DNA of 64,000 nucleotides from Polyangiaceae bacterium. GTDB lineage: Bacteria > Myxococcota_A > Polyangia > Polyangiales > Polyangiaceae. Position numbers and translations under genes: made by a program. The notes beneath the pieces were generated by a model that did no database searches, was not told the origin of the DNA, and saw nothing but the letters and a program-made list of their open reading frames with translations. The stretch lies in NCBI GenBank assembly GCA_020849655.1, contig JADLFU010000183.1, forward strand, positions 1 through 64,000, read 5' to 3'. Below, in pieces: positions 3,431 to 8,030 of this stretch; position 1 is the stretch's first letter, and each line of letters starts with the position of its first letter.

Positions 3431-4708
3431 CTACGGCGACGGGACGACGGCGACCTGGGTGATGGTCTGCGCCTCGATGAACGCCTGCCCGGAGCCGATC
3501 GGCTTGCCGTCGAGCGCGGCGTTCACTGTCACGAGGCCCGTCGGGAGGTTGAACCCCCCGGCGATGCCCGCGCCGTCCGTCGCTGTCGCGTCCTTCGTGG
3601 GGAACCCAGCCTGGAAGTAGCCCACCGTGGACCCGGCGTCCGCGCTGCTGATGGTGATCGTGGCGCCCGAGACGTACGACAGCTCACAATCCTGAAGGAT
3701 GGCGATGAGGTGCCCGCGCTTCGGATCGGCCGACACGCCGAGCGCCGCCGTCGCCGCGGCGAACTCGATGTCGCGCAGGATGGGCATGGGGGGTAGCGTC
3801 ATCGAGCTCGCGACCGGCGGGTTGTAGAACCCGAGCGTCGGCGTGTAGCCCGCCGCGGTGATCTTGAAGAGGCCGTTGAAGCCGCCGACCACCTCGGTGA
3901 CGGAGAGATCGAACTCCGCGACGCCTCGCGCGTCGGTGGTGGCCGGCGGCGCGAGGGGCGAGGCGCACCCGACGTCGACCTTGCCGCAGGCGCGGACCTC
4001 GGCGCCCGGGACGGGCTTGTTGTTGGCGGCGCCGGAGACCGCGAGGACCACGTGCACGCTGGTCGTGCCGGGCAGGACGCGCGGCCAGGCGACGTGGCCG
4101 TTGCAGGCGACCTGCTTGCCGACGTCGCACTCCGCGCCGCACGCGAGGCGCGCCGCGGCCGCGAGGTCGCCCGTTGTCGAGCGCGCGGCGCACCGCTCGA
4201 GGCACCCGCGGTCGAGGGGGTTGCACGAGAGCGCGCAGGTCGCCGCGTCGACGCACTTGGAGTCGCTCGCGCACGTGGTCGTGATCGCGCAGGCCTTCGA
4301 GCCCAGGCACGCGGCGCAGGCCGAGCTCCGCCCGACGAGCGTCGGCAGCAGCAGGCCCGAGTCCCCACAGGTGTCGCCGCACTTGCCGGCGCACCCCACG
4401 GCCTCGCACGCCACCATCGCCGAGAGCGCCGCGCTCGCGCCCTTCCCGCAGGCGCCACGGCAGCCTTGATCGCCGGCCGGGCACGCCGCGAGGCAGTCGT
4501 ACGTCGCCGCGCAGGCTTGATCGGCGCGACAGGCCGCGGCCTGTTCGCAGCAAGCGCTCGCGGTGCAGGCGGCGCACGCCTCGGGGAGGGCGAAGCCACC
4601 GCACGTCGCGCCGGACGGCGGCCTCCCCTTCGGCTCCTCCGGGGGGCTGCAGGCGCCGGGCGCCGCCGAGAGGGCCAGGAGGAGAGCCAGCGTCGGCGAG
4701 GCGCGCAT
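3431..4708 (-). CDS. Cys-rich lipoprotein
   Basis: The 425-residue product has a lipoprotein signal peptide (lipobox PGAC near residue 20). Residues of about 35-200 carry more than 30 cysteines, many in C-x2-C, CC and C-x3-C spacings, as in extracellular disulfide modules. The C-terminal 200 residues contain two Gly/Val-rich beta segments resembling carboxypeptidase regulatory-like or Ig-like folds. The function is unknown. The ATG at 4708 gives the signal peptide; a start at 4744 would add a poor N-terminus. It is divergent from the MurE-like gene, with a 59-bp shared upstream region. A gap of about 120 bp to the convergent LamG gene holds no clear terminator. Confidence 0.7.
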   Translation of the reverse strand: MRASPTLALLLALSAAPGACSPPEEPKGRPPSGATCGGFALPEACAACTASACCEQAAACRADQACAATYDCLAACPAGDQGCRGACGKGASAALSAMVACEAVGCAGKCGDTCGDSGLLLPTLVGRSSACAACLGSKACAITTTCASDSKCVDAATCALSCNPLDRGCLERCAARSTTGDLAAAARLACGAECDVGKQVACNGHVAWPRVLPGTTSVHVVLAVSGAANNKPVPGAEVRACGKVDVGCASPLAPPATTDARGVAEFDLSVTEVVGGFNGLFKITAAGYTPTLGFYNPPVASSMTLPPMPILRDIEFAAATAALGVSADPKRGHLIAILQDCELSYVSGATITISSADAGSTVGYFQAGFPTKDATATDGAGIAGGFNLPTGLVTVNAALDGKPIGSGQAFIEAQTITQVAVVPSP

Positions 4709-4767: not shown

Positions 4768-5976
4768 ATGAACGCGAGCGAGCTGCGGCCGAGGTTCCGC
4801 GTGGTCTGCGCCACGGGAACGAACGGCAAGACCACGACGACGAGCCTCGTCGAGGCCATCGTGCGCGAGGCGGGCGAGATCCCCGCGCGCGTGACGACGC
4901 TCGGCGCGTGGGTCGACGGCGAGCACCTCGCGGACGAGGCCACGCCCGAGGCCTTCGAGCTCGCGGTCAACCGCGCCGCCGAGCGGGGCGTGCGCACCCT
5001 GGCCGTCGAGACGACGTCGCAGGCGCTGCAGAAGGGCTTCGCGGCCGCGTTCCCGCCCGATGTAGCGATCTTCACGAATCTGACGCGCGATCACCTCGAC
5101 GCGCACGGCACGCTCGAGGAGTACCTCGCCGCGAAGGCGCAGCTCTTCCTGCACGCGCGCGCGGCGGTCGTGCTGAACGCGGCGGACGAGGCGAGCGCGC
5201 TCCTGCGCGAGATCGTGCCGGAGGGGGTGCAGGTGCGCTGGTACGCGGCGCGTGAGCCCGTCGTCGACGCCCCGCTCGATCTGTCCGCGACGGGCGTGCT
5301 CGCCGGGCGAGACGGCACCCGCGTCGAGCTCGCGCCGTCGGACGCCGCGCGGCGCCTCGGCGGGGAGCTCTCGCTGCGGATGGTCGGCGACGTGCACGCG
5401 GCGACCGCGCTCGGCGCCGCGCTCGCCGGGCTCGCGCTCGGCTTCGACGGCGAGGTCGTCCGGCGCGGGCTCTCGGGGTTCGCGGGGGTGCCGGGGAGGT
5501 TCATGAGGATCACCGACGAGCCGCTCGGCGTCGTCGACTACGCGCACACGCCGGACGCGCTCTCGCGCACGATCTCGCTCGCGCGTCGCCTCGTCGCCCC
5601 CGGAGGCCGCGTGCTCGTCGCGTTCGGCTGCGGGGGCGATCGCGATCAGGGCAAGCGCCCGGAGATGGGCGCGGTCGCGGCGGCGCTCGCCGACGTCGTC
5701 GTGCTGACGAGCGACAACCCGCGCACGGAGGACCCCGAGGCCATCCTCGACGCCATCCTGGCGGGCGCCGGGGAAGGCCCGGCCGAGGTGCTCCGTATCT
5801 CGGACCGGCGAGCGGCGATCGAAAGAATCATTTCCCTCGCGCGTCCGTCAGATATCGTCGTGGTCGCTGGGAAGGGCCACGAGGCTGTACAAGTGGTGGG
5901 GAGCGACGCTCTCCCTTTCGACGACGCGACCGTGCTCGCGGCCGCCGCCCAGAGGAAGAAAGGAACATCGACATGA
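4768..5976 (+). CDS. MurE-like Mur ligase lacking the N-terminal UDP-binding domain
   Basis: The 402-residue protein is an ATP-dependent amide ligase of the Mur family. The P-loop TGTNGKTTTT lies at about residues 17-26. TNLTRDHLDAHG, DYAHTPDAL and FGCGGDRDQGKRPEMG follow, and SDNPRTEDP near residue 315 matches the DNPR motif linked to meso-diaminopimelate selection in MurE. GKGHE and a DDATVL tail complete the C-terminal domain. MurE is normally near 490 residues and begins with a domain of about 90 residues that holds UDP-MurNAc-L-Ala-D-Glu; here the protein starts almost at the P-loop. The divergent lipoprotein upstream leaves no room for it. It may use a different acceptor, perhaps a recycled peptide, but this is inference. 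Confidence 0.8.
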   Translation: MNASELRPRFRVVCATGTNGKTTTTSLVEAIVREAGEIPARVTTLGAWVDGEHLADEATPEAFELAVNRAAERGVRTLAVETTSQALQKGFAAAFPPDVAIFTNLTRDHLDAHGTLEEYLAAKAQLFLHARAAVVLNAADEASALLREIVPEGVQVRWYAAREPVVDAPLDLSATGVLAGRDGTRVELAPSDAARRLGGELSLRMVGDVHAATALGAALAGLALGFDGEVVRRGLSGFAGVPGRFMRITDEPLGVVDYAHTPDALSRTISLARRLVAPGGRVLVAFGCGGDRDQGKRPEMGAVAAALADVVVLTSDNPRTEDPEAILDAILAGAGEGPAEVLRISDRRAAIERIISLARPSDIVVVAGKGHEAVQVVGSDALPFDDATVLAAAAQRKKGTST

Positions 5977-6269
5977 AGCTGGATCGTGAGAAATTCTTGG
6001 CCGCCGCGTTCGTGATGGTCGGCGCGTCGTCGACGCTCGTCGGCTGCAGCAAGAAGGAGCCCACCGCGGACACCCAGGCGACCACCGCCCCGGCCGCCGA
6101 GACGACGGCGACCACGCCGAAGCCCCCGCCGCCTCCCGCGCCGAACGCCGAGGCCGTCGTGAAGCCCGGCGACCGCGTGGTCCGCGTCCCTGCGCCGCAC
6201 GCGGAGACCGCCGCGCCTGCGACGCCTCCGCCCGGCGCTCCACCGAAGATCAAGCCCGTCACGAAGTGA
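5973..6269 (+). CDS. Small Pro/Ala/Thr-rich lipoprotein
   Basis: The 98-residue product has a short signal peptide and lipobox (LVGC near residues 23-26). The mature region of about 70 residues is rich in Pro, Ala and Thr, including PPPPP runs, and looks unstructured. It could be a periplasmic tether. Its ATG overlaps the stop of the MurE-like gene (ATGA), so the two are cotranslated. An inverted repeat at 6321-6343 follows about 50 bp after the stop. No family is recognised. Confidence 0.7.
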   Translation: MKLDREKFLAAAFVMVGASSTLVGCSKKEPTADTQATTAPAAETTATTPKPPPPPAPNAEAVVKPGDRVVRVPAPHAETAAPATPPPGAPPKIKPVTK

Positions 6270-6320
6270 CCCGAGCGCCGACGCGAGGGCGCGGTTGCCT
6301 CCTCGCGTCGGCCGGCTACA

Positions 6321-6343
6321 ACGCCCGCCGAGTTGGCGGGCGT
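6321..6343 (+). terminator. Perfect 9-bp hairpin, terminator-like, overlapping the next start codon
   Basis: ACGCCCGCC (6321-6329) and GGCGGGCGT (6335-6343) are perfect inverted repeats around the loop GAGTT. TCGCTTTT follows, so it resembles a weak intrinsic terminator for the MurE-like operon. The proposed TTG start of the L,D-transpeptidase gene (6333-6335) lies in the loop and first stem base. The structure could instead control translation of that gene. Confidence 0.55.
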
Positions 6344-8030
6344 TCGCTTTTCCATCCTCTGCGCGCTCGCGTCGCTCGCCCTCGTCGGGTGCAAGCGCGG
6401 CGCGTCGACCCCGGCGCCGGCCGCGTCCGCGAGCGCGGAGCCAGCGGACGCGCCGCCCGCGGCGTCCGGGCCGAAGCCTCGAGAGGTCGAGCCGGCGCCG
6501 GACGGCCCCATCGTCGGCGCGATCACCGGCCAGGCGAACGTGCTGCTCGAACCGCGCGAGGGCGCCCGCCGCGTCGGCTACCTGCGCCTCGGCGCGATGG
6601 CCCCCCGCGACGGCGACGCCGTCGGCCGATCGGGGTGCCCGGGCGGGTGGTACAGGATCAAGCCCCGCGGGTTCGTGTGCGTCGGGCCCGAGGCGACCAT
6701 CGATCCCGAGCACCCGGTGCTCCGTGCGGCGCGTCGGGTGCGGCCCGATCGCAAGAGCGCGATGCCGTACCGCTACGGGTTCGTGCGCGCCGTGCTCCCG
6801 CTCTACCTCCGCCCTCCATCGCGCGTGCAGCAGGAGCGCAGCGAGATGAGCCTCAAATCTCACCTCGAGAGGTGGCGAGCGCAGCAGGCGGAGCTCAACA
6901 AGGTCGTGCTCGGCGCCGACGACGTGCCGGTCGACGCGCGCGGCGCGCCGATCGTCGGCAAGGCGCTCGGTGACGTCCCGCACCCGACGACCACGTGGGG
7001 GCAGGGGCAGCTCTTCGGCGGCGACTCGGACGACGACCCCGTGCCCTTCTGGCTCGAGGGCGGCAAGCGCGCGATCCCGAACGTCGCCGACTTCAAGGTC
7101 ACGGGCACCTCGGTGTTCGCGGACCGCGCGCGCCGCCACACGGGCCTCGCGTTCATCGGCTCGTTTCACATGGGCGAGGACGGCTTCTCGCGCCGCTTCG
7201 GGATCACCACCGATCTGCGCCTCGCGCCGACGAGCAAGGTGAAGCCCGACACGGGCTCGCCGTGGCACGGGCTCGAGCTCGGCGAGGGCAAGACGGCGCC
7301 GCCGCTGCCGTTCGCGTGGGTGCGCGTCACCGGCGTCAAGACGTACAAGCTCTCCGACGGCAAGGCCCGCGAGCGCGCGCCCGTCGAGAAGCGATCGGTG
7401 CTGCTCCTGACCGGCAAGAAGGTCGCGGGCCCCGACGATCACTACTGGGAGCTGAAGAACGGCCAGTACGTGCGCGCGTCGCAGGTGGCCGCGGTGATGC
7501 CCCCGCCCGAGTGGCCCGGCGCCGCGAAGAAGGGCGAGAAGTGGATCGACGTCTCGATCGAGAACCAGACGCTCACGCTCTACGTCGGCCAGAGCCCCGT
7601 CTTCGCGACGATGGTGTCGACGGGGCGCGACAAGCTCGGTGACCCGAAGACCACGCACAGCACCGTGCGCGGCGCCTTCCGCATCCAGAGCAAGCACGTG
7701 ACCGCGACCATGGACTCGAACGAGGGGCTCGGCGGCCAGAAGGCGAAGGACCAGGATCCCGCGTACGGCGTCACGAAGCGCCGCGGCGAGGGCCAGTTCT
7801 GGCTGCGCGACGTGCCCTACGTGCAGTACTTCGAGAAGGGCTACGCGCTGCACGTCGCGTACTGGCACGACGTGTTCGGCCTCGCGCGCAGCCACGGCTG
7901 CATCAACCTCGCGCCGCTCGACGGCAAGTACGTGTTCGAGTGGACGGACGGCCAGCCCCCGCCCGGCTGGCACGGCGTGATGCTCGGCGCCGAGATGGGG
8001 CAGGGGACGACCATCGTCGTCAGGGAGTAG
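6333..8030 (+). CDS. L,D-transpeptidase (YkuD) lipoprotein with SH3-like region
   Basis: The 565-residue product has a lipoprotein signal peptide (lipobox LVGC near residues 17-20) and a Pro/Ala linker. An SH3b-like segment of about residues 60-115 follows (ITGQANVLLEP, GCPGGWYRI), then a central region without a known family, and a C-terminal YkuD domain from about 395. The catalytic signature is HVAYWH followed by SHGCINL, with Cys as the nucleophile. Such enzymes cross-link peptidoglycan between diaminopimelate residues or anchor outer-membrane proteins. Its location beside a MurE-like ligase supports a cell-wall role. TTG is the only start that keeps the signal peptide, and no good Shine-Dalgarno is visible, because a hairpin covers the start. 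Confidence 0.85.
   Translation: MAGVRFSILCALASLALVGCKRGASTPAPAASASAEPADAPPAASGPKPREVEPAPDGPIVGAITGQANVLLEPREGARRVGYLRLGAMAPRDGDAVGRSGCPGGWYRIKPRGFVCVGPEATIDPEHPVLRAARRVRPDRKSAMPYRYGFVRAVLPLYLRPPSRVQQERSEMSLKSHLERWRAQQAELNKVVLGADDVPVDARGAPIVGKALGDVPHPTTTWGQGQLFGGDSDDDPVPFWLEGGKRAIPNVADFKVTGTSVFADRARRHTGLAFIGSFHMGEDGFSRRFGITTDLRLAPTSKVKPDTGSPWHGLELGEGKTAPPLPFAWVRVTGVKTYKLSDGKARERAPVEKRSVLLLTGKKVAGPDDHYWELKNGQYVRASQVAAVMPPPEWPGAAKKGEKWIDVSIENQTLTLYVGQSPVFATMVSTGRDKLGDPKTTHSTVRGAFRIQSKHVTATMDSNEGLGGQKAKDQDPAYGVTKRRGEGQFWLRDVPYVQYFEKGYALHVAYWHDVFGLARSHGCINLAPLDGKYVFEWTDGQPPPGWHGVMLGAEMGQGTTIVVRE

Follow-up and report, generated by a model that had tools for sequence, protein, structure and literature searches.

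A two-domain MurE-like ligase clade of myxobacteria pairs with leader-bearing lipoproteins, its possible substrates

The window analyzed in this study is a stretch of 64,000 nucleotides (nt) from a Polyangiaceae bacterium (assembly GCA_020849655.1, contig JADLFU010000183.1, positions 1 to 64,000). It carries the genes of a MurE-like ligase, a small lipoprotein, and an L,D-transpeptidase, in this order and on the same strand. The ligase belongs to a clade of two-domain homologs, designated T, and the lipoprotein is its partner. The features of the locus are as follows.

4768..5976, + strand: two-domain MurE-like ligase (T family), 402 amino acids, with Mur_ligase_M and Mur_ligase_C and without the N-domain that binds uridine diphosphate (UDP)
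5973..6269, + strand: partner lipoprotein, 98 amino acids, whose first 4 nt overlap the ligase stop; related leaders lie beside other T ligases
5973..6047, + strand: conserved leader and lipoprotein signal MKLDREKFLAAAFVMVGASSTLVGC, assigned from the leader profile and the genome-wide pattern
6090..6101, + strand: first P-x-x-E motif (PAAE) of the mature lipoprotein, with a candidate acceptor glutamate
6141..6152, + strand: second P-x-x-E motif (PNAE) of the mature lipoprotein
6195..6206, + strand: third P-x-x-E motif (PHAE) of the mature lipoprotein
6333..8030, + strand: lipoprotein-type L,D-transpeptidase, YkuD at residues 403–560 with SHGCINL; the TTG start codon is uncertain

The original prediction described the ligase as a MurE that has all of the catalytic motifs, including DNPR, but lacks the domain for the UDP substrate and has no room for it upstream. 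This description was borne out. In Pfam, Mur_ligase_M covers residues 16–220 (106 bits) and Mur_ligase_C covers residues 243–370 (114 bits), and no domain was found before residue 16. The murE model TIGR01085 joins the protein only from model position 85 onward, and NF001124 only from position 108 onward. The motifs found are the P-loop GTNGKT, the carbamyl-lysine K123, DYAHTPDAL, and GGDRDxGKR, together with the two motifs for meso-diaminopimelate (mDAP), DNPR (residues 316–319) and GKGHE (residues 368–372). A frameshift, or an N-domain in another frame, was rejected because no reading frame 5′ of position 4768 encodes this domain. The DNA there is occupied by an opposite-strand gene (3431–4708), a Cys-rich lipoprotein-like gene divergent from the ligase, whose counterpart in a genome of the same genus (G001, L053:481–1758) has the same orientation and place. 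The ligase of that genome is 89% identical to the window ligase over the first 135 residues. The window gene passes the general model TIGR01085 (310.5 bits, above the cut-off of 257.3); therefore, annotators would name it MurE. An AlphaFold2 model of the two-domain ligase has a mean predicted local distance difference test (pLDDT) score of 92.9. Its best structural match is plant PAP11 (9epc, Z 40.6), followed by MurE (4bub, Z 38.0; 2wtz, Z 37.9), the cyanophycin synthetase CphA1 (7wae, Z 36.1), and another MurE (1e8c, Z 35.1).

The source genome (6.56 Mb in 307 contigs) was searched for a full-length MurE, as had been proposed with the prediction, and one was found on another contig (G000:C64, L057:5336–6823, TIGR01085 465.6 bits against the cut-off of 257.3). 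The window ligase is therefore a paralog. The standard MurE, MurF, MurD, and MurC form one division/cell-wall (dcw) cluster on that contig, and the window ligase lies outside it.

Two-domain homologs formed a set apart from full-length MurE when 39 relatives were compared. A profile (A1) built from 15 of them and run on 289 genomes of the class gave 112 T rows, spread over 89 genomes and scoring 415 to 627 bits, whereas full-length MurE scored at most 363 bits among the matches listed; a few partial T matches lay in between. Across the wider phylum, a match at 1e-108 was present in 25 of 282 genomes, and two patterns derived from A1 found mostly ordinary MurE from many phyla in the wider genome contigs. 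One genome (G169) carries three T ligases (L222, L223, and L224) besides MurE. We analyzed 114 T ligases, namely, a first set of 76 and a hold-out set of 38, which includes genera already present in the training set; the genes around the loci were called with our own script. In a FastTree tree, a branch with a support of 100 separates the T proteins from seven MurE proteins. The P-loop falls within the first 55 residues in nearly all of the first 76, and the exceptions are fusions and one long gene call. The two-domain state recurred in one alignment of 16 two-domain relatives with 18 full-length MurE and in a larger one of 114 with 18. The window ligase is a member of this distinct clade, not a chance product or a broken gene.

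The active-site residues of the 114 T proteins were compared with those of 18 MurE proteins of relatives. The ATP (adenosine triphosphate) and donor residues E81, H109, K123, D257, H260, K296, R297, N317, and R319 are kept in all 114, D316 and E372 in 113, and K21 in 111 (the other three have gaps). The ATP site and the carbamylated lysine are retained, and the DNPR and GKGHE motifs are almost always retained; DNPR binds the mDAP carboxyl according to an excerpt of PMC3829189. For MurE of Mycobacterium tuberculosis, the key residues of the substrate site listed in part of a review are Arg230, Ser222, Thr195, and Thr196 (PMC6736417). Position 91, equivalent to Arg230, is Arg in all 18 MurE proteins and in none of the T proteins, which have Phe (65, including the window ligase), Tyr (37), Leu (7), or otherwise Trp, His, or Val. 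At position 83, equivalent to Ser222, all 18 MurE proteins have Ser and 112 of the 114 T proteins, the window ligase among them, have Thr. Asn210 is likewise found in every MurE, as against four T proteins. The replacement of the contacts to UDP-N-acetylmuramyl (UDP-MurNAc) dipeptide and the retention of the mDAP residues fit another acceptor, as the original prediction suggested. The window enzyme is a two-domain MurE whose acceptor site is altered, and T ligases are most probably active enzymes with a non-UDP acceptor. The loss of the Arg at position 91 would fit a glutamate within a protein chain if that Arg served the free α-carboxylate of the γ-linked D-Glu.

The conserved partner of the T ligase is the small leader-bearing lipoprotein, not the L,D-transpeptidase. 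The leader consensus is approximately M-K-I-D-R-x-K-F-L-A-L...C. Its core, D/N-R-x-K/R-F-L, resembles the twin-arginine translocation (Tat) motif minus the second Arg; in place of RRxFL, the window lipoprotein and most partners have R-x-[KR]-F-L, the second Arg being replaced mostly by Glu, Ser, Thr, or Ala. A strict form of the motif occurs within 3 kb of the ligase in 35 of the first 76 T loci, and 391 kb of DNA farther out contained two matches, both of them T-linked copies. A profile trained on 43 leaders found a match in 26 of the 38 hold-out loci, with scores down to 16.8, while the best score in the control (103 kb from the window and its genome) was −0.08; no leader was found at the other 12 loci. 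A partner was identified at 80 of the 114 T loci, a count that includes leader variants and Cys-rich neighbors assigned by eye.

The exact leader pattern was also searched in the DNA of all 289 genomes and gave 31 matches, compared with none for the reversed control. Five are twin-Arg signals. Among the 26 others, 25 lie in the 89 T-bearing genomes (binomial 3e-12, with kinship ignored); 14 are within 3 kb of a T ligase and 17 within 10 kb. In one genome (G024), the T ligase (L044) has no adjoining partner, and a leader lipoprotein is encoded on another contig. A T-type leader was also seen in a genome, 87% complete, that gave no T ligase match (G272:C49:6501). The pairing of ligase and lipoprotein genes is observed directly, and it is very likely that the two form a functional pair.

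The original prediction listed this lipoprotein but gave it no weight, and it named the L,D-transpeptidase in its title. A BLAST search with the window L,D-transpeptidase against all genes called around the first 76 T ligases matched itself alone. It stands beside no other of these ligases and was ruled out as the conserved partner. The window lipoprotein ends in Lys and, with the adjoining L,D-transpeptidase, recalls Braun lipoprotein. However, a C-terminal Lys, shared by only 10 of the 75 partner lipoproteins, was rejected as a feature of the family, and the transpeptidase is not conserved. Moreover, attachment of the Braun type is not known to need a ligase.

Behind the leader, the mature bodies are diverse: disordered Pro-rich or repeat bodies, E-C repeats, LDLa-like repeats, and a 14-Cys domain. 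We sorted the lipoproteins by eye into nine types. On a FastTree tree of the ligases, the body types (eight labels) require 30 changes, compared with 68.8 after shuffling, and none of 200 shuffles was as low, although near copies among the loci contribute to this clustering. Because the body types cluster on the ligase tree, the ligase and the lipoprotein have been inherited together.

The disordered bodies are enriched in P-x-x-E. In 23 of them, the motif occurs 118 times, compared with 33 ± 4.8 in shuffled sequences (maximum 48), and Pro-to-Glu spacings of 1, 2, and 4 to 8 show no excess; six loci in the disordered-body count were picked by hand, with no effect on the outcome. The excess was also found in all 44 bodies (138 against 42 expected), in all 75 partner lipoproteins (201 against 69), and in 26 hold-out bodies (52 against 24.3, maximum 41), whereas 67 unlinked lipoproteins had 44 against 37 expected. 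The repeats differ in sequence (PTREV, PTKEG, PNNEG, PSGEC, and PAAEG, besides PAAE, PNAE, and PHAE of the window).

We tentatively propose that T ligases place mDAP on carboxylates, most likely those of glutamates, of their partner lipoproteins. This MurE paralog has dropped its nucleotide-binding domain and would form a two-gene module together with a lipoprotein carrying a dedicated leader. The ligase would bind ATP, turn a carboxylate into an acyl-phosphate, and couple mDAP or a close diamino acid, as MurE does. The acceptor would be a carboxylate of the partner, recognized in the cytoplasm through its leader, and in disordered bodies, including that of the window, it would most likely be the γ-carboxyl of the P-x-x-E glutamates. 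The product would be a protein-borne γ-Glu-mDAP isopeptide, which in chemical terms is the second half of the peptidoglycan stem peptide. The partner lipoprotein may be the direct substrate of the T ligase; this, together with glutamate as the site and mDAP as the donor, we infer from the conserved leader, the repeated motif, and the retained donor residues. After export, transpeptidases, one of which is encoded next door in the window, could join the free amine of mDAP to peptidoglycan, but it is doubtful that the modified lipoprotein is joined to the wall.

Several known systems resemble parts of this pair. T ligases share with MurE the fold of domains 2 and 3, the ATP site, the carbamyl-lysine, DNPR, and GKGHE; they differ in lacking the nucleotide-binding domain and in the replaced equivalents of Arg230 and Ser222, and the window ligase also in its place outside the dcw cluster. 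Folates, too, are acted on by Mur ligases. Excerpts of the literature describe Mur ligases acting on UDP precursors (PMC3829189), on cyanophycin (PMC9262961), and, through MurT, on lipid II (PMC6085368). In CphA1, a Mur-like domain attaches Arg to the side chains of Asp residues in a polypeptide, according to part of PMC9262961. By analogy, its M domain offers a parallel in reaction: it has nearly the same fold, uses no UDP substrate, and couples an amino acid to acidic side chains. However, CphA1 is one large enzyme that has an ATP-grasp domain and acts on poly-Asp with Arg, whereas the T ligase stands alone, lacks an ATP-grasp domain (Pfam, 402 amino acids), keeps the mDAP motifs of MurE, and lies beside a ribosomally made lipoprotein. 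MurT also lacks the uridine-binding domain and, in the text consulted of PMC6085368, acts on lipid II rather than on UDP precursors. Unlike T, it has a Cys-rich insertion and amidates lipid II with the glutaminase GatD; Pfam showed no such insertion in the window ligase and no such glutaminase among the scanned window neighbors, and the partner of T is a lipoprotein. Ribosomally synthesized and post-translationally modified peptide (RiPP) systems share with the T pair a conserved N-terminal leader, a variable body, and a small precursor gene beside an ATP-dependent ligase, and the T loci have a conserved leader on precursors that are paired with an enzyme gene. They differ in that the T leader doubles as a lipoprotein signal and the modification is a proposal. 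Titles and abstract openings on Mur ligases with RiPPs named no such enzyme, and in searches of open-licence papers, no account was found of a lipoprotein paired with a two-domain MurE.

Several observations weigh against lipoprotein modification as proposed. No partner was identified near 34 of the 114 T ligases. Repeats within one chain are not independent, and near-identical genomes are included; the counts are therefore inflated. P-x-x-E is absent from two lipoproteins with ST-E-G repeats and from two or three others. In an alignment of 35 Cys-rich lipoproteins (which omits L213, L249, L269, L284, and L200), all 15 columns conserved at 70% or more are Cys, and no Glu or Asp is conserved. 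A fixed acceptor glutamate was not found in these bodies, and so a single fixed Glu site fails for the family as a whole. Finally, Arg292, which we take to correspond to the mDAP contact Arg390 of the E. coli enzyme, is present in the window ligase and in only 73 of the 114 T proteins; therefore, the donor may not be the same throughout the clade.

The Cys-rich helical domain, with about 14 conserved Cys, was found in 35 lipoproteins (L043:4480–5223, L049:7277–7942, and 33 more). Pfam gave no convincing match for the seven that were scanned. Its AlphaFold2 model (pLDDT 71.4) had only a weak structural match (6poo, Z 3.0), from which no function was drawn.

Accessory genes at some T loci concern the stem peptide. 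In 17 of the 114 loci (9 of the first 76 and 8 of the hold-out 38), the next gene downstream, on the same strand, is an NlpC/P60 gene, which in some cases overlaps the ligase; no other member of this family was found in the T loci. These genes have a Cys-His-His pattern and no visible signal peptide, and their solved kin are Spr/MepS, LytE, and dipeptidyl-peptidase VI. YkfC, of the same kind, is a γ-D-glutamyl-diamino acid endopeptidase according to part of PMC2954226, and its target is the same bond that MurE makes. In the proposed system, NlpC/P60 could serve as an eraser. A class A beta-lactamase-like gene follows NlpC/P60 at three loci (L043:1434–2249, L188:3515–4330, and L192:8161–8934; Pfam Beta-lactamase2 in the L043 copy only). 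The T ligase block also lies beside or inside a ribosomal protein operon in L042, L043, L188, L192, and L201, the genes being named from their sequence starts.

At four loci, a MurF-like ligase is fused in front of T (L185:6004–8541, L191:5971–8703, L210:2437–5199, and L219:5983–8733), in the reverse order of the MurE-MurF fusion model NF008896. The MurF-like part of L191 scores 301 bits with TIGR01143 (cut-off 288.6). All four have lost the MurF DSR motif, which presumably has a role in UDP binding, and all four adjoin P-x-x-E lipoproteins. In the class, scores far above those of ordinary MurF were limited to these fusions and one separate copy (G243:C1081), and the window's own genome has no standalone MurF-like partner ligase. 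A fuller form of the proposal, in which γ-Glu-mDAP, or γ-Glu-mDAP-D-Ala-D-Ala with the fused MurF-like ligase, is built on glutamates of leader lipoproteins and tied covalently to the wall by ordinary transpeptidases, is rather unlikely. The stem-peptide enzymes (NlpC/P60 and the MurF-like fusions) agree with the link to cell-wall modification drawn in the original prediction, but the L,D-transpeptidase of the window is not conserved.

A free-peptide ligase of peptidoglycan recycling is an improbable alternative. The T ligase would join mDAP to L-Ala-γ-D-Glu or a similar peptide, Mpl would then load the tripeptide on UDP-MurNAc, and the lipoprotein would be a distinct envelope protein belonging to this pathway. 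An Mpl-like ligase is indeed encoded in the source genome (C110, L237:7899–9884), although its TIGR01081 score of 330.7 bits is below the family cut-off of 388.7, and the YkfC-like genes downstream of some T ligases would suit such a pathway. However, NlpC/P60 and the ligase would cancel each other, and a free D-Glu keeps the α-carboxylate that the lost Arg of MurE presumably served. Recycling also gives no account of a leader common to otherwise unrelated lipoproteins, of their co-diversification with the ligase, or of the P-x-x-E excess, and a lipoprotein acceptor fits more of the evidence.

It is similarly unlikely that the two proteins are functional partners without direct modification, for example, if the ligase made a DAP-peptide signal that the lipoprotein sensed and Ser/Thr kinases provided the output. 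At five loci (L038, L040, L189, L193, and L202), orthologous Ser/Thr kinase genes immediately precede the ligase, and the Cys-rich and LDLa-like modules look like binding domains. However, kinases are common in these genomes and are not conserved at the loci across the clade, disordered repeat bodies would be poor receptors, and sensing needs no leader motif.

A T ligase that acts on a lipid-linked stem peptide (lipid I or II) like MurT but uses an amino acid in place of ammonia, with the lipoprotein as a wall-binding partner, is considerably less probable. The loss of the N-domain in MurT goes with a lipid-linked substrate in the excerpted PMC6085368, and stem-peptide enzymes occur at some T loci, but Pfam shows only Mur_ligase_M and Mur_ligase_C, no GatD-like neighbor was noticed, and the leader and the P-x-x-E motifs would be left without a role. 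A catalytically dead scaffold like PAP11, the top structural match, is very improbable because 111 to 114 of the 114 T proteins retain the catalytic and donor-site residues.

The modification of partner lipoproteins by T ligases, if true, would be a system new in kind. A Mur ligase would graft peptidoglycan chemistry onto ribosomally made proteins and so provide an outer-membrane tether that reuses the stem-peptide pathway. It would also answer how myxobacteria could tie lipoproteins to the wall. A widespread clade with the mDAP site of MurE, an altered acceptor site, and co-diversifying tagged lipoproteins points to an unrecognized protein modification in myxobacteria.

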